Source: a virus
Strand: one strand, 5' to 3'
Virus record (IMG/VR): IMGVR_UViG_3300020020_001120
Span: 1 to 42,735 of that record
Length of the DNA: 42,735 nt
Position numbers and translations under genes: made by a program. Positions 344 through 42,735 of this stretch are shown here, one piece after another (within the stretch, counting starts at the first letter, position 1; each line of letters starts with the position of its first letter). The notes beneath the pieces are model-generated. The model saw only the letters and a program-made list of their open reading frames with translations, did not search any database and was not told the origin of the DNA.

Positions 344-348
344 CCAGC

Positions 349-388
349 GCATCGGTGCACCGGTCGACTGATGCATCGGTGCTCTAGT
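349..388. repeat. Octad repeat array 1 (five 8-bp units)
   Basis: Contiguous 8-bp units read GCATCGGT, GCACCGGT, CGACTGAT, GCATCGGT, GCTCTAGT. It lies between two convergent genes (stops at 343 and 384), so it is not a promoter site for either. Related arrays are at 4525-4604, 16708-16755, 16922-16969, 28865-28912 and 42183-42230. Contiguous short direct repeats with fixed phase are the kind of site bound by RHH partition/regulator proteins (omega, ParG); binding by the RHH protein of this window is inference. Confidence 0.7.
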
Positions 389-853: not shown

Positions 854-1293
854 AGCCGAGCTATAGCCTCATGGCGCAGCCGACACCAGACACAACCGAG
901 CCCGCGAATCAGCGGTCGCTAGGGCCTCGCTAAGGCGAGAGAGACGCACGCGGCTCTGTAGGAGCGACCGCCCCTTCGAAGCTCCCTCACGCCAACGTCG
1001 TGCGAGCAAACGGCGTTTACGCACTACGGCTACACGCGCTCGCGAGCTAGAGCCCCGGCGCGCTAGCGCGCGAGCTAGAGCGCCGGGCTAGAGTCTCCGA
1101 GCGCTATTTGCTTGACACGGGTCTGCGCCGCACATGTACGCTCGCGCGTGCGCGGTCTCAGTTAACCGAGAGACTAGGCTTACGCTCTCCGTTGAGACGT
1201 CGTCAGAAGAGAATCTCGCAATCTGGGCAGAGGCACGGAATCCAGATCTTGCTTTGCTGAGCGCCGATACATGCGCGCGCGCGAGACGCGACC
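854..1293. other. Non-coding, repeat-rich flank of the plasmid origin
   Basis: I see no convincing gene here. The stretch has a 9-bp inverted repeat (912-920 with 963-971) enclosing a smaller hairpin, two copies of GAGCTAGAGC 28 bases apart (1044-1053 and 1072-1081) around a GCGCGCTAGCGCGC palindrome, and a TTGACA at 1112-1117. GTCTC/GAGAC arms around GTTAAC near 1154-1174 form another dyad. Short frames exist on both strands but have shadow-like composition. The region adjoins the iterons, so these are probably origin or copy-control elements. Confidence 0.5.
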
Positions 1294-1356
1294 AACCATG
1301 TCTGGAACGGTCCCAACCATGTTTGGAACGGTCCTTAACCATGTCTGGAACGGTCC
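1294..1356. repeat. Three 20-bp replication iterons
   Basis: Three direct copies of AACCATGTCTGGAACGGTCC occur at 1294-1313, 1315-1334 (one mismatch, TTT for TCT) and 1337-1356. The 21- and 22-bp periods put all copies on one face of the helix, as expected for initiator-binding iterons. They lie downstream of the TrfA-like gene, which is transcribed toward them, and 30 bases from a DnaA box. Together these mark the vegetative origin of the plasmid form. Confidence 0.85.
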
Positions 1357-1385
1357 CCGCAAATGGCGCTAGCGCGGGGATAACG

Positions 1386-1394
1386 TGTGGATAA
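1386..1394 (-). promoter_or_regulatory. Perfect DnaA box
   Basis: The 9-mer TGTGGATAA is the reverse complement of the consensus DnaA box TTATCCACA. It follows the iterons by 29 bases and is itself followed by an inverted repeat, CCTACC at 1395-1400 with GGTAGG at 1405-1410. A GCGCTAGCGC palindrome at 1366-1375 lies between iterons and box. Host DnaA participation is what is known for TrfA-type origins. Confidence 0.75.
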
Positions 1395-1467
1395 CCTACC
1401 AATGGGTAGGGAGTGCGAAATCGCGCAATTCGGCCGACGGCGATCCGTCAGCGACGGCGCTCGAGCG

Positions 1468-2241
1468 TCAACCGTTCGAGGAAACGACGTCAGCCTCGAA
1501 CCGCAGGCGCAGCAGGCCGTGCGCCTGCAGCTCGCTCACCGCCGCCTTTACGCGCCGCCGCACCTCGTTAGGTGGCTGCGTCGGTGCGATGCGTCGGCGA
1601 ATCGTGTCGAGCGTCACTGACGGCACCGCCGAGAGGCACAGCTGCAGCCACTGCGCGAGAGGCCGGTTGCCGACTGCGTGCCTCGTCGGCTCGTCAATCT
1701 CAACCATGCCGAGCGCCATCACGTCGAGCATGTCGCGGTTTAGCCACAGCGAGAGCTTGCCGCCCTCGAGCTCGGCGTCGAGCAGCAGACCGCCGAACGC
1801 TCGGCGCTGCTCGTCGCGACTCTCGAGTGCAGCCCTGCCGAGGCCTCGAACAAGCGACCACAGCGCGTTAAGGTTGTACGCGCCACCCTTGCGCGCGAGG
1901 GCGCGGTTTAGCTCCGAGAGCGGCAACGACACGCGCTCACCGGCGCTGCAGCCCTCGAGTCGAGAGACCGCAAGCATCCACACGTCAGCGTGCGCCTGCG
2001 TGAGCTCGGGCCCGTCGAGCCAATACACGCGACCCGCGCCGCGCAGCTCGAGGGCCCGCTCACGCTCGCGAGCCTTGCCGACATGCGAAGCTGTGAAAAC
2101 GTTGGCGCGAATCACTTCGAGCGGCATCTGCAGGGTACCCGATCGGCATCGTGGCACGCGTTCGAGCGGCGCGCGAGTGCGTGCAAGTGCGCTCCCGGCA
2201 AGTGCCTTGAGCTTATCGGCCGCATCTGCTTTACTCTCCAT
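1468..2241 (-). CDS. TrfA-like plasmid replication initiator
   Basis: The 257-aa product resembles the TrfA family, which binds iterons and recruits DnaA and the replicative helicase. The middle carries the family pattern of LPLSELNRALARKGG, then ALWSLVRGLGRAALE, then a Leu/Asp stretch and HAVGNRPLAQWLQL, followed by a second winged-helix-like half ending at the C-terminus. The ATG at 2241 is preferred over the GTG at 2244 because an AGGGA site (minus strand, 2252-2248) is then six bases away. The gene reads toward the iterons at 1294-1356. An inverted repeat (GCGGG/CCCGC, about 2255-2271) just upstream may be an autoregulatory site. Identification rests on motif memory plus the adjacent origin. 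Confidence 0.8.
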   Translation of the reverse strand: MESKADAADKLKALAGSALARTRAPLERVPRCRSGTLQMPLEVIRANVFTASHVGKARERERALELRGAGRVYWLDGPELTQAHADVWMLAVSRLEGCSAGERVSLPLSELNRALARKGGAYNLNALWSLVRGLGRAALESRDEQRRAFGGLLLDAELEGGKLSLWLNRDMLDVMALGMVEIDEPTRHAVGNRPLAQWLQLCLSAVPSVTLDTIRRRIAPTQPPNEVRRRVKAAVSELQAHGLLRLRFEADVVSSNG

Positions 2242-2279
2242 CACGAATCCCTGAGCGGGCCACTAACCCGCCGATTCAA

Positions 2280-2309
2280 GACACCGCGCTGTTTCAGCAG
2301 TGCGGTGTC
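2280..2309. terminator. Hairpin between the ASCH-like gene and rep
   Basis: GACACCGC (2280-2287) pairs perfectly with GCGGTGTC (2302-2309), and an inner CTG/CAG pair closes around TTT. On the minus strand it lies after the ASCH-like gene and before rep, so it may end transcription of the former or attenuate the latter. No long T run follows. Confidence 0.4.
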
Positions 2310-2314
2310 AGGCT

Positions 2315-2330
2315 ATGGCCTCGGGGCCAT
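2315..2330. promoter_or_regulatory. 16-bp palindromic operator candidate (copy 1)
   Basis: ATGGCC-TCGG-GGCCAT lies in the leader of rep. The same 16-mer with one central change (TCTG) is at 4617-4632 in front of the Cro-like gene. A shared dyad in the rep leader and the lysogeny switch suggests one regulator controls both; which one is unknown. Confidence 0.5.
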
Positions 2331-2397
2331 GTACGGCAGAGTAGAGCCCGGCAGACACCGCCAAGGCAAAGAAAATCGGCAATGTGCGGACGATTGC

Positions 2398-3147
2398 CTA
2401 CCGCTTGCGGGCCGCTTTGCGGGATTTCACGCCCACCGCGCGCGTCTGCAGCGACCGGCCGACGGATCGTCTGCGTGCCGCCGGCGGCTGCTCGAGCGCG
2501 AGCCGGTCGGCTTCGGCGCACCGGCGCATCGACTCGGCGTCGTGCCGCGTAAAGGACAGCGCCCACACCCACGGGTCGAGCTCTACGCTTAGGTCCGGCC
2601 GCGGATACGCGAGCGACCAACGCCGCTCGAAGAGTTGGCGACGGATCGGACACTCATCCTGACAGTAACTGTAACTAGTATCGTGCTCCGGACAAGCGAC
2701 GCCCTCACCTGCTAGGTCGAAGTGACGCGCGTCACTCAGTCGCTGCACACGCACGTCGTACAACCGTAACCACATGCGTGCAGCTGACAGCGGCATCAAG
2801 AGCGGCGATATCCACGCGTGCGCTCGCCAGCTCTCCGCGCTGTCACTGTCAGCCTCATACACGACCGTGCGCTCGCGACCGCGGCGGGCCACGGCCCAAC
2901 GCTCGCGCACCCATAGCCAATCGTGCTGGGCGCCATATGGACAGGTCACTGTTGCGGGTTTGCCGGCAGCGGTCGAGCACACCACGCGCACGCGGTCGCG
3001 GTCGGCTTCGTCACGCACCCATCCATCGATCGTCAAACCCGGCGGCAGTTGCACCGGTCGACGCAACTGCCATTGCCGACCCGCGCGCAGTCGCCTGACT
3101 TGGCCGCGCGAGCACACAATCGAGCGCTGTTGCACGCGCGTTGTCAT
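2398..3147 (-). CDS. ASCH-domain-like phage protein, 249 aa
   Basis: The order of motifs matches a common phage protein group with an ASCH-like fold: an N-terminal RRPV-type basic strand, then CPYG...DWLWVRERWAVA, SPLLMPLSAARMWLRLYDVRVQRL, and a C-terminal WSLAYPRPDLSVELDPWVWALSF strand. ASCH domains are thought to bind RNA or nucleotides, and the phage members have no settled role. Four Cys in the middle (CPEHDTSYSYC, C) may bind a metal. The C-terminus is basic. The gene diverges from 3377-3787, and the 229-bp space between holds no other gene. Position between rep and the switch suggests expression in the prophage or early phase. Confidence 0.6.
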   Translation of the reverse strand: MTTRVQQRSIVCSRGQVRRLRAGRQWQLRRPVQLPPGLTIDGWVRDEADRDRVRVVCSTAAGKPATVTCPYGAQHDWLWVRERWAVARRGRERTVVYEADSDSAESWRAHAWISPLLMPLSAARMWLRLYDVRVQRLSDARHFDLAGEGVACPEHDTSYSYCQDECPIRRQLFERRWSLAYPRPDLSVELDPWVWALSFTRHDAESMRRCAEADRLALEQPPAARRRSVGRSLQTRAVGVKSRKAARKR

Positions 3148-3376
3148 CCGCTCTAACGGATACTACAGCGCGCGCATAGTGTGCGTGAGTGTAAGCCTCA
3201 CGATTTTGTCGAGCGGGGCAACACACGACTGTTTCGGTCAGCCGACAAGTGTGTCACGACGGGACGGCCACGTCGCCGCTACCCGTGACTCACCCATCAG
3301 CCGTGCGCTCGATTGGCGCGCGCGCGAAGCTGATGGACGACACCGGTCAGCTGGCTAGGGGGGATTAGTAGCAGCT

Positions 3377-3787
3377 ATGCCGGGTAGTCGACTTGATGCG
3401 CTTCGCGCAGACGCCGCCATCGCTCAAGAGCTCGCCGACCTCGACGACGCTCGCGCGACCGTAGCCGCGATCCACGTGGCGCGGGTACCGCCCCATCATC
3501 ACCTGTCGCGCATCTGGCCGATCACCCCGCCGCGCTCACGTCTCGGGGTCTGGTGTCAGTGGCTCGGATTTTCCAAAGCTGATATCGCCGCCGCTCAATT
3601 CCGCGCGCCCATCCGCGTCGCGGCCGACGTCGCGCACGCCATTCGAAAGCTCGCGCCGAACATGCCGAGCGCGCTCGGCGTGGCGCTCGCCGTGCTCGAG
3701 TCGTGCGGCATCGTGCTCGACGGCGACTCGCTCGCCATCCTCTGCACGTTCGCGGCGCAGTGCCGCTTCCCTAGGCCCGTTTCTTAG
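3377..3787 (+). CDS. Hypothetical protein, 136 aa
   Basis: No family is recognised. The second half (from about residue 60) reads as regular helices with a possible DNA-binding-like pattern (FSKADIAAAQFRAPIRVAADVAHAIRKL), reminiscent of a small HTH, followed by a hydrophobic C-terminal helix pair. An AGGGGGG ribosome site about 13 bases upstream supports the ATG. The last 17 bases overlap the end of the repressor gene on the other strand (convergent). Confidence 0.55.
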   Translation: MPGSRLDALRADAAIAQELADLDDARATVAAIHVARVPPHHHLSRIWPITPPRSRLGVWCQWLGFSKADIAAAQFRAPIRVAADVAHAIRKLAPNMPSALGVALAVLESCGIVLDGDSLAILCTFAAQCRFPRPVS

Positions 3788-4385
3788 ACCGCCGAAACTG
3801 CGACTGCACGACCGCCGCCGTGATTGTCTCCGGCGAATACGGCGCCTTGCCGTCGGCGCGCGCGAGGTCGCGAATCTCTTGCAGGCTTGCCCGACCTTCG
3901 GCGCCGCCGCGTGCCTTGCCCTTGCCCTTGCCCTTGCCCTTGCTCGTGCGCTCGCTCCAGTACGTCTCTAACCACGGCATCGTTGCGGGACGCTGCGCAC
4001 ATGCTCGCATCACGGCCGCGACCTGCCCCGGCGTCGCCTTGCGCTCGGCGAGCCATGCGGTGACGTCGGCCGTGGTGAGGACGGTCGGCAGCTCGAGCTG
4101 TGCTCGGTATTGATCGCGACCGTCGGGCCCGAAGCACAGCTCTTCGAGCGGCGCTTCGAACATCAACGCGATCCTCATGAGTGTTGGGATCGTTGGCATC
4201 GCTTGGCCGAGCGTCCAGTTATCGACCGCGCCATATGACACGCCGAGCACCGCTGCGAATGCGCCCTTCGTGTAGCCCTCTCTTTGGAATAGAGCCCATA
4301 TCCGCCGGCCGAGCGTCGATTCGCTCAACGGGTCGCTATCCAGCGCCGGCGCTGGCTCCCGCGCAATCTTTCCTCGCCAACCCAT
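3771..4385 (-). CDS. CI-like XRE-family transcriptional repressor
   Basis: The 204-aa product has an XRE helix-turn-helix at about residues 25-83 (TLGRRIWALF...KGAFAAVLGVSYGAVDNWTLGQAMPTIPTLMRIALMFEAPLEEL). The C-terminal part has no visible LexA-like Ser/Lys protease motif, so induction would not follow the usual RecA route. A Lys/Gly track, (KG)4-K, is encoded by five perfect CCTTGC hexamers at 3914-3943; its length can change without a frameshift. The gene diverges from a Cro-like gene across 261 bases, the classical lysogeny-switch layout. Probable prophage repressor. Confidence 0.7.
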   Translation of the reverse strand: MGWRGKIAREPAPALDSDPLSESTLGRRIWALFQREGYTKGAFAAVLGVSYGAVDNWTLGQAMPTIPTLMRIALMFEAPLEELCFGPDGRDQYRAQLELPTVLTTADVTAWLAERKATPGQVAAVMRACAQRPATMPWLETYWSERTSKGKGKGKGKARGGAEGRASLQEIRDLARADGKAPYSPETITAAVVQSQFRRSKKRA

Positions 4386-4524
4386 CGGGCCGGAACTAGC
4401 GGCTTTAGGTCATCCGCGCAAGCAATTGCGGCAAACACAATCGGCGGGTGGAAAAGCTCCTACACTATGCTCCGTAAGCTCTAGCCCAAAAGCCCTATGG
4501 TCTGCCGGCTTTAGGCCGGCCGAA

Positions 4525-4604
4525 GCACAAGCGCACCGACCTACCAGTGCTCAAGTGCACACGTGTGCGAGTGTGCGCGAGCACGCGTGCTCATGAGCAT
4601 TGCG
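4525..4604. repeat. Octad repeat array 2 (ten degenerate 8-bp units)
   Basis: Read in 8-bp steps from 4525 the units include GCACCGAC, CTACCAGT, GCTCAAGT, GCACACGT, GCACGCGT, GCTCATGA and GCATTGCG. The phase is kept although individual units drift from the GCACCGGT consensus. It lies in the regulatory space between the CI-like and Cro-like genes. Confidence 0.5.
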
Positions 4605-4616
4605 ATCGGGCTATAC

Positions 4617-4632
4617 ATGGCCTCTGGGCCAT
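4617..4632. promoter_or_regulatory. 16-bp palindromic operator candidate (copy 2)
   Basis: ATGGCC-TCTG-GGCCAT, the partner of 2315-2330. It overlaps the end of a TATACA hexamer (4612-4617) and ends 14 bases before the Cro-like start codon, so a protein bound here would block initiation of the lytic operon. Confidence 0.5.
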
Positions 4633-4646
4633 AGTAATCCGGACGG

Positions 4647-4949
4647 ATGCAACTCGCTCAGTGGGTCGAGACACAGGACGCCGGCGTGCTGACACGCCTA
4701 CAGCTGCAGACGGGCTTGAGCTACACCGCGATTCTGCGCGCGGTGCATCGCCGCACGAAGCCCCTGTACCAGACGGCTCACAAGATTGCCGCCGCCACCA
4801 ACTATCAGGTGAGCGTCGAAGAAATCTGTGCACCGCCGCTGCCGCCAGCGCCGAAGCGCAAGCGCGCAAAGAAGCCGGCGAAGCCCGTCGTCGCTAAGAA
4901 GCCCGCGAAGCGCAAGCGCGCCGCGCAGCCGTCGGCGGCGACCGCCTAG
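4647..4949 (+). CDS. Small Cro-like HTH regulator with basic tail
   Basis: The 100-aa product has an XRE/Cro-type helix-turn-helix over about residues 14-58 (LTRLQLQTGLSYTAILRAVHRRTKPLYQTAHKIAAAT). A Lys/Arg/Pro/Ala-rich tail from about residue 65 resembles histone H1-like tails and should bind DNA nonspecifically. It is the first gene of the rightward early operon and diverges from the CI-like repressor, so a role as antirepressor or early regulator is inferred. A GGACGG stretch just before the ATG is a weak ribosome site. Confidence 0.65.
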   Translation: MQLAQWVETQDAGVLTRLQLQTGLSYTAILRAVHRRTKPLYQTAHKIAAATNYQVSVEEICAPPLPPAPKRKRAKKPAKPVVAKKPAKRKRAAQPSAATA

Positions 4950-4981
4950 CCATCGACCCGCTTGCCGACCGTCGACGCCGA

Positions 4982-5019
4982 GCCCGCCGCTCTCTATTGG
5001 GGGTTGGGATGCGGCGGGC
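4982..5019. promoter_or_regulatory. Long-stem hairpin before the replication operon
   Basis: GCCCGCCGC (4982-4990) and GCGGCGGGC (5011-5019) are perfect 9-bp arms around a 20-base loop containing a G-rich run. It separates the Cro-like gene from the O-like gene and may attenuate or terminate transcription. It also overlaps an ATG at 5009, one reason to prefer the later start at 5051. Confidence 0.4.
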
Positions 5020-5050
5020 CCGGCGTTTCCGTGATGAGCGAGTTAAGCCT

Positions 5051-6127
5051 ATGCCAAAAGCTCCGAGCCGACCACGAATAGCGCATGCGCCGGAGCGACA
5101 GCTCACGGTGAAGGTGCCGTCGCGCTACTGGGCGGCCGATTCGCCGCTCGATGGTATCAGCCTCGCCGTCTGGGTCGGGCTCTTGCACCTCGCTCGGCGC
5201 ACCGAAGAGCGGGCTCGCGCGCGTGACAGTCACGGGGACAGTCACGCGTCGCTCGAGCGTGACAGTCACGCTCTGATTGAGCGCGGCGACGTGTACCCGG
5301 CGCAGTCAATCCGTGATGCCAACATGCAGCCGCTCACGCTCGCCGCGATTGCGCGTTTCGTGAAACTCCCACGCCATCAAGTGCAGCACGCAATGCACCA
5401 GCTCGAAGCCGCGGATGAGATTGCCAAAAGCCTAGACGGTGCCTACGTTTTGACCGAGTACAAGGTCACGCAGGAGTGCGCTGGGACCGAGCGCAAGCGC
5501 CGCCAGCGAGCCCGAAAAAAGCGGGACAGTCACGGGGACAGTCACGCCGCATCCGAGCGGGACAGTCACGGGGACAGTCACGCTTCGCCGCGTGACAGTC
5601 ACGCCCTCGCGCGCGCGTTCTCAGAGATTGAAGAGTTAGAAGAATTTAAGATCTCACAAGCCGCCGCTCTCACACTCTTTAATCCTGCCGCACGCGCGCG
5701 GGCGCACGACAGCGGCGTGTTCACGGTGCCGAGTGAGATTGCCGGCCACCGCTGGTATCACGCCCTCATTTGGTCGGCATGCACGCTCACGGCGCCGGAG
5801 CCGACGCCGAGCAGCAAGCACTTTGCCGCCTACCAGTTCATCGGTCGGCAGTCTCCGGCCGACCGTGCGCGCGTCGAAGCGTGTGCTCGCACCGTGCTCA
5901 CGGGGCGCTCAGAGTCCGCGCATTGGTTCACACCCACGCACGTCATGGACCACTGGCCGCACTATCTCAGCGGCAACCCGCCCAAGCTTCGAGGCTCGGC
6001 GCCGGCTCGCCCGGTCGAGACGCCGGCCGACCTCGACCAGGCGCGCGCCGAGCTGGAGCGCGCAGCCGCCGCGAAGCCGCCCAGCTGGCTCGACACCCGG
6101 CCCGACGGCTCGCGGGTGGCTACATGA
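5051..6127 (+). CDS. Lambda-O-like replication initiator with internal iterons
   Basis: The 358-aa product sits directly before a DnaC-like loader, the O-P arrangement of lambdoid replication. The N-terminal half reads as a winged-helix region (QLTVKVPSRYWAA..., LTLAAIARFVKLPRHQVQHAMHQLEAADEI). Two DSHGDSHA-type segments, near residues 58-75 and 158-185, are the translation of eight copies of GACAGTCACG in the DNA. By analogy with lambda O, which holds its own origin iterons, this is probably the lytic origin. Starts at TTG 4997 and ATG 5009 are possible, but both overlap a hairpin, so ATG 5051 is chosen. The stop overlaps the next ATG (ATGA). Confidence 0.7.
   Translation: MPKAPSRPRIAHAPERQLTVKVPSRYWAADSPLDGISLAVWVGLLHLARRTEERARARDSHGDSHASLERDSHALIERGDVYPAQSIRDANMQPLTLAAIARFVKLPRHQVQHAMHQLEAADEIAKSLDGAYVLTEYKVTQECAGTERKRRQRARKKRDSHGDSHAASERDSHGDSHASPRDSHALARAFSEIEELEEFKISQAAALTLFNPAARARAHDSGVFTVPSEIAGHRWYHALIWSACTLTAPEPTPSSKHFAAYQFIGRQSPADRARVEACARTVLTGRSESAHWFTPTHVMDHWPHYLSGNPPKLRGSAPARPVETPADLDQARAELERAAAAKPPSWLDTRPDGSRVAT
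5225..5603. repeat. Eight internal iterons (GACAGTCACG), lytic origin candidate
   Basis: Exact copies of GACAGTCACG start at 5225, 5237, 5261, 5525, 5537, 5561, 5573 and 5594. Spacings are 12, 24, then 12, 24, 12 and 21, so most copies are in phase with multiples of 12. Several are extended to the near-palindrome GTGAC-A-GTCAC. They lie inside the O-like gene in two clusters about 250 bp apart. A ninth copy is at 16994-17003. Confidence 0.8.
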
Positions 6128-6819
6128 CCGAGCGCGGCAACGAGCGCTTAGGCGCCGTCATACAGCGGCTGCAACGGGCGTTTATCGCCAACGGGCCGCA
6201 GTCCGACGCCGAGCTCGCCGACGCCTCTCGGCTCGCCGAGCGCGCCGCACGCCGCGCCGCCCTCGAGCGCGCCGGCCATCCGCTGCCGATCACGACCGCG
6301 ATGCACGACGCCATCGTGCTCGGCACCCTATCGCGCACCTACGCGCTCAACGTGGCGCTCGGATGGCATGGGCTCGCCAAGCCATCCGAGCGGACGAAGG
6401 CGCCGTCTCGGCCGATCCTCGTGCTTCATGGGCTCGCCGGGTCCGGCAAGTCGGTCGCCGCGGCCGCCGTGCTCGCGCAAGTGCCGGGCGCCCGCTGGGC
6501 GTCGAGTCGCACGCTGCTCGAGTGCTACACCGGAAGTTTTGGCGAAGTGCTGCAGCGCCGGGCCGTGCTGCAGACATCCTCGCTGCTCGTGCTCGACGGC
6601 ATCGGAGACGAGCGACCCGACCGCGCGGATGCGATGTCCGACGCGCTGCTCGACATGCTCGCGCACCGCGTGCACCGCCGGACGATTGTCACGACACGGC
6701 TGCTCATGAAGCCGTTCGAGACTCGCTACAGCAGCACGCCGCTGGCGAGTCTATTCGTCGAGTCGGCCGAGCTCGCGCCGATTCCGACGCACGACATGCG
6801 CAAAGGGGGCTTGCCGTGA
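6124..6819 (+). CDS. DnaC-like helicase loader ATPase
   Basis: The 231-aa protein has an AAA+ core. Walker A is GLAGSGKS at about residues 103-110, and Walker B is LLVLDGIGDE at about 154-163. A sensor-like IVTTRLLMKPFETRYSS segment follows. Length and layout fit DnaC/IstB-type loaders, which place the host replicative helicase at an origin opened by the initiator. The ATG overlaps the stop of the O-like gene (ATGA), so the two are translationally coupled. Longer upstream extensions of this frame are shadows of the O-like gene. Confidence 0.8.
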   Translation: MTERGNERLGAVIQRLQRAFIANGPQSDAELADASRLAERAARRAALERAGHPLPITTAMHDAIVLGTLSRTYALNVALGWHGLAKPSERTKAPSRPILVLHGLAGSGKSVAAAAVLAQVPGARWASSRTLLECYTGSFGEVLQRRAVLQTSSLLVLDGIGDERPDRADAMSDALLDMLAHRVHRRTIVTTRLLMKPFETRYSSTPLASLFVESAELAPIPTHDMRKGGLP

Positions 6820-12152: not shown

Positions 12153-12683
12153 ATGTCAGAGCAGTCGACGGCGCTGATACTCACGATAGTTCCGACGACT
12201 CTGCGCGAAGCATCGGCGTTTGTGGGTCGCCATCACCGGCACCATCCGCCCCCGCAGGGGGGGGCGTTCGCAATCGCCGTTGCGCGCGATGGTGAGATCG
12301 TAGGTGTGGCGATTGTCGGGCGCCCAGTGGCGCGCATGTCAGACGACGGCTTTACGGCAGAGGTCACACGCGTGTGCGTCGTCGACGACGTAAAGAACGC
12401 ATGCTCGAAGCTCTATGCGGCTGCGTGGCGAGCTGCGCGCGCCATGGGCTACCGCCGATGCGTCACCTACACCCTAGCGACCGAGCCCGGTGTCAGCTTG
12501 CGCGGCGCCGGTTGGCGTCTCGTCGGCGAAGCCGGTGGCGGGTCATGGTCGCGCGCGGGTCGACCGCGCATCGACATGCATCCGCTGCAGACCAAGCTCC
12601 GATGGGAAGCTATTGACACCCGCGCACCCTGCCAATACAGCCCGACATGGATTGGCGCTCCGACAGCTGGGAAAACGCCGTAA
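12153..12683 (+). CDS. XF1762-family (GNAT-like) phage protein
   Basis: The 176-aa product matches the family pattern strongly: FVGRHHRHHPPPQGGAFAIAVA, then GEIVGVAIVGRPVAR, TAEVTRVCVVDDVKNACSKLYAAAWRAARAMGYRRCVTYTL, and GAGWRLVGEAGGGSWSR. These proteins share a GNAT acyltransferase-like fold and are common near phage head genes, but their substrate is not established. The start is placed directly after promoter P1 with no room for a ribosome site, implying leaderless translation. The last 37 bases overlap the portal gene in another frame and contain the portal promoter. Confidence 0.8.
   Translation: MSEQSTALILTIVPTTLREASAFVGRHHRHHPPPQGGAFAIAVARDGEIVGVAIVGRPVARMSDDGFTAEVTRVCVVDDVKNACSKLYAAAWRAARAMGYRRCVTYTLATEPGVSLRGAGWRLVGEAGGGSWSRAGRPRIDMHPLQTKLRWEAIDTRAPCQYSPTWIGAPTAGKTP
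12613..12641 (+). promoter_or_regulatory. Late leaderless promoter P2
   Basis: TTGACA (12613-12618), 17 bp, TACAGC (12636-12641), five bases, ATG 12647. TGCCAA immediately precedes TAC, as in P1 and P3. It lies inside the 3' end of the upstream gene and should drive portal and downstream head genes. Confidence 0.7.
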
Positions 12684-16209: not shown

Positions 16210-16592
16210 CTCGCCGACGTCGCCGCTCGGTACGTCACACGCGTGTAGCGCTGCCCACCGGGGCCCATGGCTCGCTCGTCGAGCTCGCGCACGCACGCGC
16301 AGCGCTCGCACGACTCGACCCGCACGCCGCTTCCGGCGAGCACTGGCAACCAGGCGTGCACACCGTGAGTCGGACACAGCGGCTCGCGCGGCGGCACCTC
16401 GACATAGACCGAGCCCGCCTCACCGCTCGACTCGCACACGACTGACACCTCGAGCAGCCACGTCGAGCAGCTCCGTGCGCGTTGCGAATCCACGTCGACA
16501 CGTGCGAGCGCTTGCGCCAGCGCCATCTCCGCAGTTGCGCTCTCGACCGCGGTATACGGGGTTGCGTCTTCTGACACGATCCATGTTGCCAT
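16206..16592 (-). CDS. Reverse-oriented accessory (moron-like) protein, 128 aa
   Basis: This is the only minus-strand gene within the 8.8-41 kb rightward late block. It has its own signals: TTGACC (16650-16645), 18 bp, TATAGC (16626-16621), then an AGGAGG ribosome site (16609-16604) 11 bases before the ATG. That is unlike the neighbouring leaderless genes and is the hallmark of a gene expressed from the prophage. The product has an Ala-rich N-terminus, five Cys (CVVCES earlier; CERCAC later) and a C-terminal GPGGQRYTRVTYRA strand. No family is recognised. It overlaps the MuF gene end by four bases. Confidence 0.65.
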   Translation of the reverse strand: MATWIVSEDATPYTAVESATAEMALAQALARVDVDSQRARSCSTWLLEVSVVCESSGEAGSVYVEVPPREPLCPTHGVHAWLPVLAGSGVRVESCERCACVRELDERAMGPGGQRYTRVTYRAATSAS

Positions 16593-16620
16593 CGCCTAAC
16601 AAGCCTCCTGTGTACGACGA

Positions 16621-16650
16621 GCTATAGCGCTGCAACTCTAGCGCGGTCAA
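16621..16650 (-). promoter_or_regulatory. Promoter of the reverse-oriented gene
   Basis: TTGACC, 18-bp spacer, TATAGC on the minus strand: a conventional sigma-70-like promoter followed by a strong AGGAGG ribosome site at 16609-16604. Start of transcription is predicted near 16614. Confidence 0.6.
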
Positions 16651-16707
16651 CAGAACGCGGTGCGCAAAACGGTCGCGCGGTACGCTGTGTGTAATGTGTG
16701 CATAAGT

Positions 16708-16755
16708 GCACCGATCCTTCGATGCTCTGGTCGACCGGTGCACCGGTGCGTGTAT
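16708..16755. repeat. Octad repeat array 3 (six 8-bp units)
   Basis: Units are GCACCGAT, CCTTCGAT, GCTCTGGT, CGACCGGT, GCACCGGT, GCGTGTAT, contiguous and in phase. The array lies upstream of the minus-strand accessory gene and its promoter. Confidence 0.7.
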
Positions 16756-16795
16756 CCACCCCGGCGCCGGCCGACCGCTCGAGCGCCGTGGCTCA

Positions 16796-16898
16796 CCCGG
16801 GGGGCTAGCAAGTGACCTGCTAGCCCCCGGGCGGGAGCGACCGACCGCTCGCCATTCCGGCCGCATTCGGGGGCTAGCAAGTCACCCGCTAGCCCCGG
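16796..16898. repeat. Two direct copies of a GCTAGC-centred hairpin
   Basis: Hairpin 1 pairs GGGGGCTAGCA (16800-16810) with TGCTAGCCCCC (16818-16828) around a 7-base loop. Hairpin 2 pairs GGGGCTAGC (16870-16878) with GCTAGCCCC (16888-16896) around a 9-base loop. The left halves are an 18-bp direct repeat (GGGGGCTAGCAAGT-N-ACC) 69 bases apart, so this is a duplicated element. It could be a bidirectional terminator pair or a recombination, resolution or replication site. No T tract follows either. Confidence 0.75.
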
Positions 16899-16921
16899 GT
16901 CCGGGCGCCCGGGGGTAAGGC

Positions 16922-16969
16922 GCACCGGTGCACCGATCCACCGGAGCACCGGTGCTCTTGACAATCGGT
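16922..16969. repeat. Octad repeat array 4, overlapping promoter P3
   Basis: Units are GCACCGGT, GCACCGAT, CCACCGGA, GCACCGGT, GCTCTTGA, CAATCGGT. The -35 TTGACA of P3 (16958-16963) lies inside units five and six, so a protein covering the array should repress P3. Confidence 0.75.
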
Positions 16970-16986
16970 CGCCGTGCCAATACGCG
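16958..16986 (+). promoter_or_regulatory. Late leaderless promoter P3
   Basis: TTGACA (16958-16963), 17 bp ending TGCCAA, TACGCG (16981-16986), five bases, GTG 16992. Its -35 is embedded in octad array 4, and a copy of the replication iteron (16994-17003) starts at the third base of the GTG. Confidence 0.7.
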
Positions 16987-28864: not shown

Positions 28865-28912
28865 CGACCAGTGCACCGGTGCACCGATTCGCCGGTGCTC
28901 TTGCGCTTCGGT
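28865..28912. repeat. Octad repeat array 5, overlapping promoter P5
   Basis: Units are CGACCAGT, GCACCGGT, GCACCGAT, TCGCCGGT, GCTCTTGC, GCTTCGGT. As at 16922-16969, a GCTCTTG unit supplies the promoter -35. The array fills the space between the spike and W genes. Confidence 0.75.
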
Positions 28913-31158: not shown

Positions 31159-34100
31159 ATGGCAATCACACTCACGTTCGACCAAGTAGACGCAGGCATA
31201 CCGGCCGGCAGCGTCGACCGCGGCCGCACCGACATCAAGAGCACCGGAGCTGTCGCCGCGACGCGCGCGCACACCGTGACGATCACGGTCGGCAACATCC
31301 CGACCGGTGCGCTCGTCGACGTCGTGCTGCTCGACGAGCCGCCTAACAGCAACCCGCTCTTGACCGAGCTCGCGCCGGAGACATGGACGCTCGAGTTCGA
31401 TATCGGGTGTTGGGGTCCGTTCCGTGTGCGCGTCACCGCGACCGCGAGCGGACAGGTTGTGTCATCTGTCACGCGGCGCATCTCGATTCGCTCGCCGGGC
31501 TATCACATCGACTATCCGGGACTCGCCGAGAGGTACGACCCGAACGCGACGCTCGTGCCGACCGTGCCGTCGGTCGAGTTGACGGAGATGAATGAGGGCT
31601 CAACCAACCGCCCTCTCGTCGACTTTCACCGGCAGATGGTCGAAGCCATCGAGGGCGGCGTCGGCGGCGGCGGAGTCATCCCGGACGGCAGCATCACCGA
31701 AGAGAAGCTCGCGCCGGCGCTCAGCGACAATCTGCTGCGCGCCGACGGCTCGCTGCCGCTTACCGGCTCGCTCGACGCCGCCGGCAACACGGTGACGAAT
31801 CTCGCCGCGCCGACGCTCGGCTCCGACGCCGTGCCGCTCTCGTATGTGCAGCAGTCCATGACGCTCGCCGGCATCCGCACGCCGTGCAGGCTCGTCGCGA
31901 CGACGCCGTTCACGGCCTCGAACACGCAAGTCATCGACTCAAAGGCGACAGTAAACGGCGACCGCGTGCTGCTCACTGCGCAAGCGTCGCCGGTCGACAA
32001 CGGCATCTACGTCGCCAACGACGCCGGCGCATGGACCCGCGCGCTCGACGCGGACACCAGCGGCGAGCTCATCCCCGGCATGGTCGTCTTTATCACCGAC
32101 GGCACAGTCTACGCAGACAGCGGATGGGTGCTCTCCACCGATGCGCCCATCGCCATCGGCACGTCGGCGCTTACGTTCTCGCGGTTCACCGGCGCTGCGC
32201 AGCTCGTCGCCGGCGCTGGCTTGCTCAAGACTGGCGACACGGTCGACGTCGTCGCGCACGCAGACGGCTCGATAGTCGTGTCTGCAGACGCCGTGCAGGT
32301 CGGCATCCTCGCAACCGATGCGCAGCACGGCAGCCGCGGCGGCGGCACGCAGCACGCCGCAGCGACGACGAGCGAGCCCGGATTCTTAGCGGCCCTCGAT
32401 AAAACCAAGCTCGACGGCGTCGAAGCCGGCGCGCAAGTCACGTCTTTTGCGCGCGTGCAGACCGCACTCGCCGCGGCGAGCTCGGCCGTCGGCTTCAACG
32501 CGCAGCGCTTGACCGGCGTCGCCGACCCGACCGCAGCCCAAGACGTCGCGACGAAAGCCTACACAGACGCCGTCGCGCAAGGTCTAGACGTAAAGGCCTC
32601 GTGCAGAGCCGTTGCAACCACGAATCTCGGCACGCTCTCCGGCAACTACACGATCGACGGCATCACGACAGTCAACGGCGACCGTCTGCTGCTGACAGGG
32701 CAGAACACAGCATCGCAAAACGGCATATGGGTCACAGCGGCGGGCGCATGGGCACGCGGTGCGGACGCAGACAGCTCGGCCGAAGTCACCGCCGGCATGT
32801 TTGTCTTTGTCACCGAGGGCACGGTCAACGCTGACAGCGGGTGGGTCCTGACGACCAACGACCCGATCACGCTCGGCACCACGGGCCTCGTGTTCACGCA
32901 GTTTAGCGGCGCTGGCCAAATCACCGCCGGCACCGGGCTCATCAAAACGGGCAACACGCTCGACGTCGTCGCCCACGCCGACGGCTCGATAGCCGTGTCT
33001 GCAGACGCTGTGCAGGTCGGCATACTCGCTACCGATGCACAGCACGGCACCCGCGGCGGCGGCACGCAGCACGCCGCAGCGACGACGAGCGTCGCCGGAT
33101 TCTTCGCGGCACTCGATAAAACCAAGCTCGACGCGGTCGAAGCCGGCGCGCAAGTCACGTCTTTTGCGCGCGTGCAGACCGCACTCGCCGCGGCGAGCTC
33201 GGCCGTCGGCCTCAACGCGCAGCGCTTGACCGGCGTCGCCGACCCTAGCTCACCGCAGGATGCTGCGACGAAAGCCTACGTAGACGCCGTCGCTCAAGGG
33301 CTCGATACGAAGGCCTCTGTGCGTCTGGTCGCGACGGCCAACGTGCCGGCGCTCACCGGAGCGGTCGCCATCGATGGCGTCACGACATCGACCGGCGACC
33401 GCGTGCTGCTCACCGCGCAGACCGCCGGCAGCGCAAACGGCATCTACACGACAGCCGCCGGCGCTTGGGCCCGCTCGACCGACGCTGACACATCGGCCGA
33501 GGTCAACTCGGGCATGTATGTGTTTGTTACCGAGGGCACCGCGAATGCAGACAGCGGCTGGGCCCTCACCACAAACGACCCGATCGTGCTTGGCACGACC
33601 GCCCTCGCGTTTACGCAGGTTTCCGGCGCTGGGCAAGTCATCGCCGGCGCCGGCTTGACGAAGACTGGCAATCAGCTCGACGTGGTCGCGCACGCCGACG
33701 GCTCCATCGTCGTCGCTGCCGACAGTGTGCAGGTCGGGATCCTTGCGACCGATGCGCAGCACGGCACGCGAGGCGGCGGCACCGTGCATGCGGCGGTGGT
33801 CGCGGGCGGAGCTTCCGGATTCATCACGGGCGCCGATAAAACCAAGATTGACGGGATCGAAACCGGCGCGCAGGTAACGTCGTTTGCGCGCGTGCAGACT
33901 GCGCTAGCGGCTGCGAGCTCGGCGGTAGCTTTCAACGCGCAAAGACTCTCGAACGTCTTAGACCCTACAGCCGCGCAGGACGCAGCGACCCGCGCTTACG
34001 TCGACGCCGGGGTGATCGTCGCGGGCGCGGGCCTCACGAAGACAGTGACCACGCTCAACGTAGCCGCGCACGCCGACGCGTCGATCGTGGTGGCGGCAGA

Positions 34101-35973
34101 CACGGTGCAGGTGGGCGTGCTCGCGACCGACGCGCAACACGGCACGCGGGGCGGGGGCACGACGCATGCGGTAGCGACGACGAGCACTGCCGGCTTCATG
34201 GCGGCGGCGGACAAGACGCGACTCGACGCGCTGCGGGCTCGCAGCTACTTCGACGCGCGGCTCGCCACTGCAACCACGCTGCCGGCCTACACGGCGACCA
34301 CCATCTCGACCAACCGACCGCGTCTCACCGCGACGGCCAACGGCGCCCTCAGCGTCGACGGCGTCGCCGTTGTCGCCGGCGACCTTGTCGTCGTGCTCTT
34401 CGAAGCCGCGGCCAACTGCGGCGTATACGAAGTCATCGCACCCGGCACCGCCGGCACGCCCTATCAGCTCGACCTCGCCTACTCCGGCGCCTACACCGCG
34501 ACGGTCAGCGGCTCGCAAATGATCGTGCGCACTGGCTCGGCTGGCTATGCGTACTGCAATCGCGAATTTCGACCCGGCTCGACCACCAGCGGCCTGTTCA
34601 TCGAGATTCCCGGCGAGCTGCAGTTGTGGCCGCGCGACACCACGCCGCCGACAACGGTTTATCCCGGCTGGCTCTACGAACTCGACATGCTCGGCTCCAC
34701 TGTTAGCCTCACACTCGTATCGCCGCCTGGGTCCGAGCAGGTGTTGCGCGGCGTGCGGTTCGGCGTCAACGCCGGCGCTACCATCTCGCTCACCATCACA
34801 CCGAGCTCGCCGAGCAAAATAGACTCGCCTTATGCGACGAGCGGTGCCTCTGGCGGCTCGCCGGGCACCTCGATCAGTTACTCGGTTATCTCCGGCTCTG
34901 CGACGACATGGGTCTGCGGCCGCAGTTACACGAGCTACAACCCAGACAGCCCCTATTGGAAAGTCGACACGGCCTATGGGCTAGCGGCCGAGTCGGTGTT
35001 AAGCGCCAGCGGTCGAATCGACTTCACCGGCACAGGGCCCGTTGCCGGATCCGTTCTGACGGGCAGAAGCACGAGTCAAGCATGGTGGGTGCCGCCTGAC
35101 GTCGACCCGAGTACAAACGGCTTTCGCTTGTCGCCGACGGCTGACGACTCACCGGTCGCTGATGGCGCCTTTTCAATCATCTACCTCGCCCCGGTCAAGA
35201 GCGACAGGATCGCGCTCTACGACACTACGGTCTCAGGCTGGCGCTTGTGCACGGTCAACGGTTTCGGACAGACGCTGTCAGGCCGCACGACGGGCACGCC
35301 GTTCGACGTATTCATCTCACTGTCAGCACCTGCACCCACCGACGGAACGGCCGCCGGCGTCGCCGTGGAGTTCGTCAACTGGACATCGCCGACAGCACGC
35401 GCGACCGCAATCACCCGCGTCAACGGCGTTTTGACCAAGTCTGGCGCACCCGCGTCGCGCTACCTCGGTACATGCAACCCGCGCAGCGCGACGACCTATC
35501 ACATGCAGACGGTCGGCAACGATACGACACCGGCCAAGTGTGACCTTTGGAACATCGACAACCAGGTCACAGCAGCGTTTAGATACGCGCGCAGCTGGAC
35601 GCCGGAGACATTCACGCACCCGACGGCCAACACCTGGGTCGGCGCGAATGGCTCGTCCTCGCGCTTCGAATTCGTGCAGGGCGTGCCGGGCACCTGGACC
35701 CGTGCGCAAGCCTATGCCGCCGTGCAGACGAAGACCTTCGCAGCCGTAACAGGCATCGGCTTCGACACCGTCGGCACGCCGAGCGGAACGCGAACGCGTG
35801 TGCTTTCGACAAGCGTCAACGACGCAGTCACGGCCAACGGTCAATACTCCCTGCAGTCGCCCATCGGCGTGCACTATCTCGCGTGGATTATCTGGGCCTC
35901 TAACGTTGCGGTCGTCTGGTGGGGCGCGCAGTCGACGCACGAGAGCGGACTCGAGATAGCGTTCCAATGCTAG
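31159..35973 (+). CDS. Repeat-built tail fibre protein, 1604 aa
   Basis: It is the largest gene and follows the wedge protein. The N-terminal 170 residues (Ig-like strands, then a short helical segment) probably attach to the baseplate. Three full copies of a roughly 240-aa unit and a fourth half copy follow. Each unit contains NGDRVLLTAQ...NGIY..AAGAWAR, ADSGWVLTTNDPI.LGT, ADGSIVVSADAVQVGILATDAQHGTRGGGT and DPTAAQDAATKAYVDA. The C-terminal 500 residues are unique and beta-rich, the likely receptor-binding end. Unit number can change by recombination without frameshift. Confidence 0.8.
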   Translation: MAITLTFDQVDAGIPAGSVDRGRTDIKSTGAVAATRAHTVTITVGNIPTGALVDVVLLDEPPNSNPLLTELAPETWTLEFDIGCWGPFRVRVTATASGQVVSSVTRRISIRSPGYHIDYPGLAERYDPNATLVPTVPSVELTEMNEGSTNRPLVDFHRQMVEAIEGGVGGGGVIPDGSITEEKLAPALSDNLLRADGSLPLTGSLDAAGNTVTNLAAPTLGSDAVPLSYVQQSMTLAGIRTPCRLVATTPFTASNTQVIDSKATVNGDRVLLTAQASPVDNGIYVANDAGAWTRALDADTSGELIPGMVVFITDGTVYADSGWVLSTDAPIAIGTSALTFSRFTGAAQLVAGAGLLKTGDTVDVVAHADGSIVVSADAVQVGILATDAQHGSRGGGTQHAAATTSEPGFLAALDKTKLDGVEAGAQVTSFARVQTALAAASSAVGFNAQRLTGVADPTAAQDVATKAYTDAVAQGLDVKASCRAVATTNLGTLSGNYTIDGITTVNGDRLLLTGQNTASQNGIWVTAAGAWARGADADSSAEVTAGMFVFVTEGTVNADSGWVLTTNDPITLGTTGLVFTQFSGAGQITAGTGLIKTGNTLDVVAHADGSIAVSADAVQVGILATDAQHGTRGGGTQHAAATTSVAGFFAALDKTKLDAVEAGAQVTSFARVQTALAAASSAVGLNAQRLTGVADPSSPQDAATKAYVDAVAQGLDTKASVRLVATANVPALTGAVAIDGVTTSTGDRVLLTAQTAGSANGIYTTAAGAWARSTDADTSAEVNSGMYVFVTEGTANADSGWALTTNDPIVLGTTALAFTQVSGAGQVIAGAGLTKTGNQLDVVAHADGSIVVAADSVQVGILATDAQHGTRGGGTVHAAVVAGGASGFITGADKTKIDGIETGAQVTSFARVQTALAAASSAVAFNAQRLSNVLDPTAAQDAATRAYVDAGVIVAGAGLTKTVTTLNVAAHADASIVVAADTVQVGVLATDAQHGTRGGGTTHAVATTSTAGFMAAADKTRLDALRARSYFDARLATATTLPAYTATTISTNRPRLTATANGALSVDGVAVVAGDLVVVLFEAAANCGVYEVIAPGTAGTPYQLDLAYSGAYTATVSGSQMIVRTGSAGYAYCNREFRPGSTTSGLFIEIPGELQLWPRDTTPPTTVYPGWLYELDMLGSTVSLTLVSPPGSEQVLRGVRFGVNAGATISLTITPSSPSKIDSPYATSGASGGSPGTSISYSVISGSATTWVCGRSYTSYNPDSPYWKVDTAYGLAAESVLSASGRIDFTGTGPVAGSVLTGRSTSQAWWVPPDVDPSTNGFRLSPTADDSPVADGAFSIIYLAPVKSDRIALYDTTVSGWRLCTVNGFGQTLSGRTTGTPFDVFISLSAPAPTDGTAAGVAVEFVNWTSPTARATAITRVNGVLTKSGAPASRYLGTCNPRSATTYHMQTVGNDTTPAKCDLWNIDNQVTAAFRYARSWTPETFTHPTANTWVGANGSSSRFEFVQGVPGTWTRAQAYAAVQTKTFAAVTGIGFDTVGTPSGTRTRVLSTSVNDAVTANGQYSLQSPIGVHYLAWIIWASNVAVVWWGAQSTHESGLEIAFQC
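31876..34236 (+). repeat. About 720-bp tandem repeats in the fibre gene (3 full, 1 half)
   Basis: Units begin near 31876, 32598 and 33318, and a half unit runs from about 34010 to 34236. DNA identity stays high in the ADGSIVVSADAVQVG and QVTSFARVQTALAAASS segments. Equal-length units encode repeated rod domains. Confidence 0.75.
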
Positions 35974-41843: not shown

Positions 41844-42167
41844 CTACCCTACCAGCGGCAACGCCAGCTGCGCGCCGCTGCCGGCCTCGAGCGCGGCCGG
41901 GCCGCACTTCACCAGCGGCTTGAGCCGACCGTCCGCGTCGCTGGCAATGATCACCGCCCACAGCCGAGCTCGCAGCCGGGCGCTCGCCCGACGGTAGCCA
42001 CGCTCGACCATCGCCAGCGTGTCGGCCGTGCAGCCCGCGAGCTGCGCCAGGTCGTTTATCCGCATGCGCCGGCCGCTCGGCAGCCGCTGCAGCTTGCGCC
42101 AGCGCCGAATCTCGAGACCCTCGCCCTTCACTCCGCGCGCCGCCAGCTGCTCAATTGTGAGTTCCAT
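41844..42167 (-). CDS. HTH (XRE-like) regulator, 107 aa
   Basis: The middle of the protein reads as a Cro/XRE-type helix-turn-helix: MRINDLAQLAGCTADTLAMVERGYRRASARLRARLWAVI, residues about 35-73. The N-terminus (MELTIEQLAARGVKGEGLEIRRWRKL) is helical and basic. The gene has an extended -10 (TGG-TATACA, minus strand, 42238-42228) about 60 bases upstream, and octad array 6 lies in the leader between the promoter and the ATG. That makes it a candidate target of the RHH protein encoded just upstream. Confidence 0.6.
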   Translation of the reverse strand: MELTIEQLAARGVKGEGLEIRRWRKLQRLPSGRRMRINDLAQLAGCTADTLAMVERGYRRASARLRARLWAVIIASDADGRLKPLVKCGPAALEAGSGAQLALPLVG

Positions 42168-42182
42168 CGTCCCACCGCCAGT

Positions 42183-42230
42183 CTACCGAAGCATCGGTGC
42201 GTCTGTGCACCGGTGCTTCGATGCGCTTGT
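42183..42230. repeat. Octad repeat array 6 (six 8-bp units)
   Basis: Units are CTACCGAA, GCATCGGT, GCGTCTGT, GCACCGGT, GCTTCGAT, GCGCTTGT. It lies between the RHH gene (ends 42316) and the HTH regulator gene (starts 42167), overlapping the predicted transcript start of the latter. Confidence 0.7.
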
Positions 42231-42315: not shown

Positions 42316-42735
42316 CTAACGTCGCTTGCGCGCCGCCAGCTCGTTGCGCGCAATCCATTCCTTCGCAGCCGTCTCGGCCGCTTCCGAAGCGCTCAGCTCG
42401 AGCGCTTCGGCACGCTCGGCGAGCCGCTCGAGCGTCGCCGTGGTGAGCAGCGCGGCGCCGCCCCCGAAGAATCGCTCGAGCGCATCGGCGACGACGGTCG
42501 ACATCTCGATACGCCGGCTCGCGCAATGGGCGCGCAGCTTCTCGCCGATCGCCTTGGGCAAGTAGGACGTGACGCGGTCGAGCTCGGCTTTGCGCCGCCG
42601 GTGCACGAGCCCGCGCGCCGAGCCCTTGACCCCCGTGGGCTTGTCGACGAGCTCGAGCGCCAGGTCGTCGACGCCGGAGCCCGGGATGGCGGTTTGCCGC
42701 GACGAGCGCGGCGACGACAGCGGACGCGGCTTCAT
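42316..42735 (-). CDS. Ribbon-helix-helix protein, ParG/omega-like centromere-binding candidate
   Basis: The 139-aa protein has a basic, proline-rich N-terminal arm (about 55 residues), a ribbon-helix-helix core VTSYLPKAIGEKLRAHCASRRIEMSTVVADALERFF at about 55-91, and a charged helical tail. The arm-plus-RHH layout is that of small centromere-binding partition proteins, which also act as regulators. Its ATG is the last triplet of the window, and the first bases read ATGA. An upstream gene could therefore end in an overlapping TGA; a ParA-type ATPase just outside the window would be expected but is not visible. Candidate binder of the six octad arrays. Confidence 0.6.
   Translation of the reverse strand: MKPRPLSSPRSSRQTAIPGSGVDDLALELVDKPTGVKGSARGLVHRRRKAELDRVTSYLPKAIGEKLRAHCASRRIEMSTVVADALERFFGGGAALLTTATLERLAERAEALELSASEAAETAAKEWIARNELAARKRR

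Follow-up and report, generated by a model that had tools for sequence, protein, structure and literature searches.

A TrfA-like plasmid replicon beside a phage replication module in a contractile-tailed virus contig, a probable phage-plasmid

Introduction

How is a tailed phage inherited that carries a plasmid-type replicon next to a replication module of its own? The question is raised by the IMG/VR virus contig IMGVR_UViG_3300020020_001120, the complete record of which (G000; 42,735 bases, 66.6% G+C) was analysed here and is referred to as the window. A preliminary description had noted two separate replication systems in it, a TrfA-like initiator with iterons and an O-like initiator with a DnaC-like loader, and had proposed a prophage maintained as a plasmid. 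Both systems are real, differ in kind and are separately conserved. The conserved Rep–iteron replicon, together with a ParA gene adjacent to a ribbon-helix-helix (RHH) gene in relatives, supports the proposal: the contig very probably covers the greater part of a phage-plasmid, here a temperate phage with a contractile tail whose genome is passed on as a low-copy plasmid. Because plasmid replication and segregation genes stand beside the phage replication module, the dormant form is probably a free plasmid and not chromosomal. Coordinates are collected in Table 1.

Phage genes and related contigs

The packaging, head and tail genes expected of a phage-plasmid are present in the window, in which PHROGs matches identified the TerS, TerL, portal, head protease, capsid, sheath and baseplate genes of a contractile-tailed phage. 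Judged by TerL, the closest named phage is Aeromonas phage vB_AsaM-56 (Popoffvirus; 40.7%), which has a comparable contractile-tail layout but differs in that TrfA and ParA are not annotated among 79 of its 83 features. Scanning IMG/VR with TerL matched 233 stretches, 80 of which were kept; among these, 23 loci (L002–L024) encode a TerL 68–100% identical to that of the window. The longer ones were chosen as comparison genomes (G003, L007; G004, L008; G005, L009; G006, L014; G008, L019; G009, L020; G010, L023; G011, L024), and a further relative, L123, corresponds to G018.

No terminal repeats, direct or inverted, were found on the window contig, so the absence of an integrase holds only for the assembled part. 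The ends of G004 and G006 overlap by 123 and 141 bases, as would be expected of circles; G010 has an overlap of 31 bases, and G003, G005, G009, G011 and the window have none.

The plasmid-type replicon

The plasmid-type initiator and origin expected of a phage-plasmid are likewise found in the window. From position 1294 run three iterons; a perfect DnaA box comes next, and after it the 3' end of the trfA-like open reading frame (ORF). Three 20-bp iterons and a DnaA box had been described; the number of iterons and the box hold, but the copies are 21 nt long. The array is the sole three-copy array with a spacing of 20–24 in the window, and none arose in Markov-2 shuffles (0/50).

The 258-residue initiator has no match in Pfam, PHROGs or NCBIfam, and PF07042 was not found in the window at E ≤ 10, nor at E ≤ 1 by protein scan. 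Since PF07042 passes only in G008 among 11 records, the window protein is called TrfA-like rather than a Pfam TrfA. Its sole plasmid match was Azotobacter TrfA (25% over 82%, E 0.01). As aligned with hhalign, a profile of six phage homologues matched a plasmid TrfA profile, built from five annotated plasmid TrfAs and the G008 TrfA, over 228 columns (99.4%, E 7e-22); an unrelated TerL profile, used as a control, scored 0.1%. The AlphaFold model (pLDDT 72, pTM 0.74) aligned with RepE54 of mini-F (Z 14.4), Pi (Z 12.5) and TrfA 9a0w (Z 6.4), and its predicted Rep fold of two winged helices places the protein in the TrfA-like/RepE-type class of iteron initiators. The original assignment as a TrfA-like initiator is thus borne out by profile homology and by the modelled fold.

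Nine Rep homologues were identified (window, G003, G004, G005, G006, G011, L123, L128 and L130). The proteins of the window, L123 and G011 form a first lineage, 59–78% identical, and those of G003, G004, G005, G006 and L128 a second, 53–71% identical, with 24–31% identity between the two. The ratio of nonsynonymous to synonymous substitution rates (dN/dS, NG86) of trfA was 0.44 for window/L123, 0.52 for window/G011 and 0.18 for L123/G011. Three TrfA queries gave no match among INPHARED phages.

Iteron triplets of 21–22 bp with a nearby TTATCCACA box occupy the corresponding place beside the initiator in seven of the nine replicons (window, G004, G005, G006, G011, L123 and L128); of the remaining two, G003 is cut by the contig end and L130 yielded no array by script. 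Across these seven replicons, iteron similarity, scored on strings chosen by the analyst, rises with Rep identity (Mantel r 0.88, with a value as good in 8 of 5040 permutations). The exact iteron pattern had no match (0) in viral contigs. A TTGACA-17 nt-TGTACGCT block pointing towards the iterons lies at the same position in six replicons (window, L123, G004, G005, G006 and G011) despite their differing iterons, and possibly gives rise to an origin-activating or antisense transcript. A sigma-70 consensus promoter scan of positions 900–5200 of the window found none. In L130 (IMGVR 3300027676_000045), a viral contig that is not related in other respects, degenerate repeats spaced by about 22 bases were seen by eye downstream of the TrfA-like Rep gene.

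Putative partition genes

The RHH gene at the right end of the window had been called partition-like, and relatives support this guess: its neighbour is a ParA ATPase gene in all seven that reach the spot (G003, G004, G006, G009, G010, G011 and L123), where it directly precedes the RHH gene, overlapping or abutting it. The type Ib arrangement, with ParA directly upstream of RHH, is therefore found in relatives; it is only there that ParA is visible, since the window contig ends at the RHH start codon. ParA (AAA_31) was detected in 7 of 13 records searched and in the assembled part of none of the other six, the window included. Its NCBIfam ParA_partition match scored 168 bits, below the cut-off of 180, and its best plasmid matches were Sandaracinus pSa001 (38%) and Myxococcus pMF1 (39%).

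Pfam support for the RHH domain in the window protein is very weak (RHH_1, E 0.47); between the window and L123 the gene has a dN of 0.02 and a dS of 0.23. L123, which is 93–97% identical in DNA to the right end of the window, spans the gap of the window in the order trfA, two genes, ParA, RHH. The two intervening genes we take to be Uma2-like and T5orf172-like.

Palindromic arrays and their reassortment with Rep

Intergenic tandem arrays of 8-bp palindromes recur along the window and look like centromere or operator sites. Strand-wise matches to the RTGCAYCG motif (type A) numbered 10 in the window, 15 in G003, 13 in G004 and 9 in G005, with none in G006, G009, G010, G011 or the Markov controls. 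G006 and G011 carry another period-8 motif (approximately RCTAGYGC, type B) at corresponding places: in the promoter region of the head genes, downstream of RHH and ahead of the baseplate genes. The RHH proteins of G006 and G011 share 75% identity with one another and 41–47% with the window type. Motif B also occurred at up to 5 control positions and at 11 positions in G008. The genomes scanned also served to train the motif matrices, and the analyst set the threshold, so the evidence is the contrast between groups and not the match count.

Arrays lie upstream of parA in 5/5 relatives inspected (G003, G004, L123 and G011, and G006 at a distance of about 350 bases), and in 6/6 genomes they directly adjoin a TTGACA box that lies upstream of the gene for the head protease. 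The RHH protein may bind these arrays as a centromere, and because they abut promoters they are probably operators as well. Both properties have precedents: excerpts of PMC9499535 describe omega of pSM19035 as an RHH centromere protein with a second role in promoter control, the repeat arrays of which overlap promoters, and excerpts of PMC7205306 describe several separate centromere sites in N15. Near the arrays of the divergent head-gene promoter region (16590–16980 in the window), TGTGGATAA DnaA boxes were observed in five relatives (G003–G006 and G011), and the window has the DnaA-box variant TGTGCATAA at 16697.

Rep lineages and array types occur in all four combinations: lineage 1 with type A in the window and L123, lineage 1 with type B in G011, lineage 2 with type A in G003, G004 and G005, and lineage 2 with type B in G006. 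This fits the expectation if both incompatibility determinants were exchanged independently. The family might, tentatively, be regarded as phage-plasmids with two exchangeable incompatibility cassettes, one consisting of the TrfA-like Rep with its iterons and the other of RHH with genome-wide 8-bp palindrome arrays. A change of array type would then replace the motif at several orthologous promoter sites, and a single RHH protein would serve both to segregate the prophage and to gate its late genes. We rate this composite picture a little short of an even chance.

The lytic replication module

The O-like gene contains eight copies of GACAGTCAY (5225, 5237, 5261, 5525, 5537, 5561, 5573 and 5594); three copies occur elsewhere in the window, and the shuffle mean was 0.4 per window. 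Both clusters have counterparts in the same position in G003, G004, G005, G006 and G011, a reduced set is found in G009, and none was found in G008 or G010. Because the clusters recur in five relatives, the origin sequence in the O-like gene is seen to stay the same where the plasmid iterons differ.

The next gene, just beyond the range covered by the preliminary description (1294–5603), is the DnaC-like ORF. An initiator with internal origin repeats followed by a loader, as in lambda O/P-type modules, is thus present, and the eight internal repeats and the downstream phrog_50 match agree with the O-like initiator and DnaC-like loader first described. The O-like initiator fold is weakly supported: the model has low overall confidence (pLDDT 56), its region 97–134 reads as a winged helix, and its top viral-structure matches were phage replication initiators, with no match below 1e-3 in the PDB.

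Proposed life cycle

During dormancy, the three iterons would be bound by the TrfA-like protein, which would recruit host DnaA at the neighbouring box, and this origin would start slow, copy-controlled replication. Copies would be segregated by RHH and its ParA partner, the gene for which would lie just off the contig, with the dispersed 8-bp palindrome arrays serving as centromeres; arrays abutting promoters would probably double as operators. On induction, the divergent helix-turn-helix (HTH) regulators are predicted to release the O-like/DnaC-like module, which would fire the second origin, within the O-like gene, for lytic replication.

Alternative explanations

An integrase just outside the window had been named as the finding that would speak against a plasmid prophage, none having been seen inside. 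As assembled, the window indeed has no tyrosine recombinase (PF00589), serine resolvase (PF00239) or rve integrase domain. Of the 11 family records, which include the window, five have PF00589 (G003, G005, G006, G010 and G011), and a cut piece of it was found in G008; it lies a few kilobases from trfA where both are seen, and is absent from the window, G018, G019 and G020 (0/4). These proteins are what would be expected of a conventional temperate phage that inserts into the chromosome by its tyrosine recombinase and carries TrfA and ParA as plasmid cargo or a rescue system. Nevertheless, 17 of 18 solved-structure matches of the recombinase were Cre or Tre, which derives from Cre (E down to 1.8e-12), and homologues were found in 403 plasmid records (E limit 1e-20) versus one phage record (E limit 1e-10). 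A complete P1-type Cre/lox system was not seen, the Cre-like gene being absent from the window and lox-like inverted repeats (12-base arms, spacer of 5–9, at most one mismatch) from the 8 flanks searched. The data favour multimer resolution over integration as the role of the recombinase. Since it is P1 Cre-like, its homologues are mostly plasmid-borne and the nearest relative spanning the gap (L123/G018) has none, the recombinase does not refute a plasmid prophage. The circular G004 also lacks the gene; Rep and RHH, like the iterons, are conserved and vary together; and among the mapped family records none was noticed to carry a host flank. Chromosomal integration as the normal mode of lysogeny is accordingly judged improbable.

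Several observations weigh against inheritance as a plasmid all the same. The window itself is not closed and lacks ParA, with its own gap, of about 4 kb, unseen; G008, G009 and G010 have no 20–22-bp iteron array near the Rep position in the TRF output; circularly permuted phage DNA also gives end overlaps; and the tyrosine recombinase of five records could mediate integration. No host genome or lysogen was found when TerL was scanned against GTDB representatives: a first scan gave no relative, and a second only 8 loci at 30–36% identity. Tetranucleotide comparison with 12 sequences singled out no host (top r 0.39, Myxococcus, then 0.34, Sinorhizobium). Since these searches gave neither a lysogen nor a host, one might picture a lytic phage that acquired a plasmid replicon with a partition module and makes no use of them, or a decaying fusion of phage and plasmid. 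Such disuse appears highly improbable in view of the intact ORFs, dN/dS values below 1, iterons in register in seven replicons, the pair of HTH repressor-like and Cro-like genes and the retention of ParA–RHH in every relative reaching the spot. A more serious competitor touches the centromere part only: the arrays may be operators of a phage regulator, such as an HTH protein or the small HTH-like protein encoded at 41844–42167, with no role in segregation. Arrays do abut TTGACA boxes and promoter regions, and the two groups differ in their HTH proteins just as they do in RHH. Spacing as tandem 8-bp palindromes suits RHH dimers, which argues the other way, as do the arrays upstream of parA and the precedent of omega; a purely regulatory role is given distinctly less than an even chance.

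Comparison with known systems

TrfA plasmids of the IncP type and of Azotobacter, Janthinobacterium and Cupriavidus share with the window the profile homology described above, iterons and a DnaA box; they differ in that the window protein has no PF07042 match, is about 20–25% identical and is borne by a tailed phage. A parallel in architecture is the circular 106-kb plasmid NZ_CP090528.1 (L139, L142) of the sequenced isolate Cupriavidus metallidurans ZM16, on which TrfA stands beside MipZ/ParA and a small gene, with terminase, portal, capsid and tape-measure genes on the same replicon. By annotation its phage head genes are different, and it is more than twice the size and has its own DnaE and DnaB-like genes. 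It is an apparent TrfA phage-plasmid, and because it carries TrfA with phage genes, the combination was already present in databases. Of 228 TrfA-matching records, four were inspected widely, this one included. Phage-sized TrfA plasmids of Aeromonas hydrophila (40 kb), Arsenophonus (40 kb) and Proteus mirabilis (44 kb) were rejected as candidates, because the stretches inspected contain genes for conjugation but none for a phage head or tail.

P1 and N15 also combine a plasmid replicon and partition genes with lytic genes. P1 shares the Cre-like enzyme with some relatives of the window, and N15 shares the separate centromere sites noted above. Both differ from the window in its TrfA-type Rep and in its RHH protein in place of an HTH ParB, and the N15 prophage is linear, whereas a circular one is predicted here. 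Mycobacteriophages Miko and Rachaly carry a plasmid Rep (RepA) and parABS partition; according to excerpts of PMC7157519, RepA was experimentally necessary for stable lysogeny, and lytic growth looks unaltered without it. They differ in the type of Rep, in their mycobacterial host and in their origin, in which the authors found no repeated motifs (PMC7157519, in part). The delta/omega system of pSM19035 resembles the proposed one in pairing an RHH protein with ParA and in short-repeat arrays overlapping promoters (PMC9499535, in part), but uses 7-bp non-palindromic heptads instead of the 8-bp palindromes that RHH would bind here.

No description of a TrfA-type tailed phage-plasmid was found in the literature searched, which included parts of PMC6963756, PMC9499535, PMC7205306, PMC11652158, PMC13202766, PMC12690207 and PMC7157519; a TrfA-related gene is mentioned in a phage-plasmid mosaic region of Arsenophonus (PMC13202766, in part). 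TrfA replicons have been studied as engines of broad-host-range plasmids, and here one makes up the plasmid side of a family of tailed phages. Its diversifying and reassorting Rep–iteron and RHH–array specificities offer a natural system for testing incompatibility avoidance among phage-plasmids, and allow one to ask how a single segregation protein could couple prophage inheritance to late-gene control.

Table 1. Positions of the features discussed, in window coordinates
Feature	Position	Strand	Remarks
Promoter-like block, TTGACA-17 nt-TGTACGCT	1112-1142	+	points towards iterons
Three 21-nt iterons, plasmid-type origin	1294-1314, 1315-1335, 1337-1357	+	100/90/100% to reference copy
DnaA box, TTATCCACA	1386-1394	-	sole perfect copy in window; also beside relatives' iterons
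TrfA-like replication initiator, predicted to bind iterons, 258 aa	1468-2244	-	profile homology, predicted fold
phrog_874 protein, conserved trfA neighbour	2398-3147	-	phrog_874 E 2.4e-30
HTH repressor-like protein	3771-4385	-	HTH_3 over cut-off; phage repressor PHROGs
Small HTH/Cro-like regulator, divergent from repressor	4647-4949	+	weak PHROG regulator matches; conserved in relatives
O-like phage replisome organiser, origin repeats inside gene	5051-6127	+	weak fold evidence
GACAGTCAY origin repeats, two clusters (3 + 5)	5225-5602	+	inside O-like gene
DnaC-like AAA+ helicase loader	6124-6819	+	phrog_50 'DnaC-like helicase loader' E 1.4e-4; AAA_16 E 2.7e-5
Period-8 palindromic array	347-384		
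Period-8 palindromic array, left arm of divergent head-gene promoter region	16698-16751		
Period-8 palindromic array abutting TTGACA upstream of head-protease gene	16920-16957		
Period-8 palindromic array between two baseplate-region genes	28869-28902		
Period-8 palindromic array (RTGCAYCG), downstream of RHH	42187-42220		
RHH-type DNA-binding protein, proposed centromere-binding ParA partner	42316-42735	-	contig ends at its start codon

Other features

The phrog_874 protein encoded next to trfA is 84–34% identical in seven relatives. Within the repressor-like gene, CCTTGC is repeated five times (3914–3943) and encodes a KG repeat. Neither Rfam families nor tRNAs were found in the window. A Mom-like DNA modification gene (phrog_1384, E 1.2e-38) lies in the head operon of the window (12153–12683) and beside trfA in G004 (33392–33874), so it has moved. 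The plasmid-type region of G004 also encodes a ParE-family toxin (34634–34921, corresponding to L091:14634–14921; PF05016, E 8e-13). The tail-fibre gene of the window (31946–33941) is built of modules of about 720 bases with a repeat identity of 77–79%.

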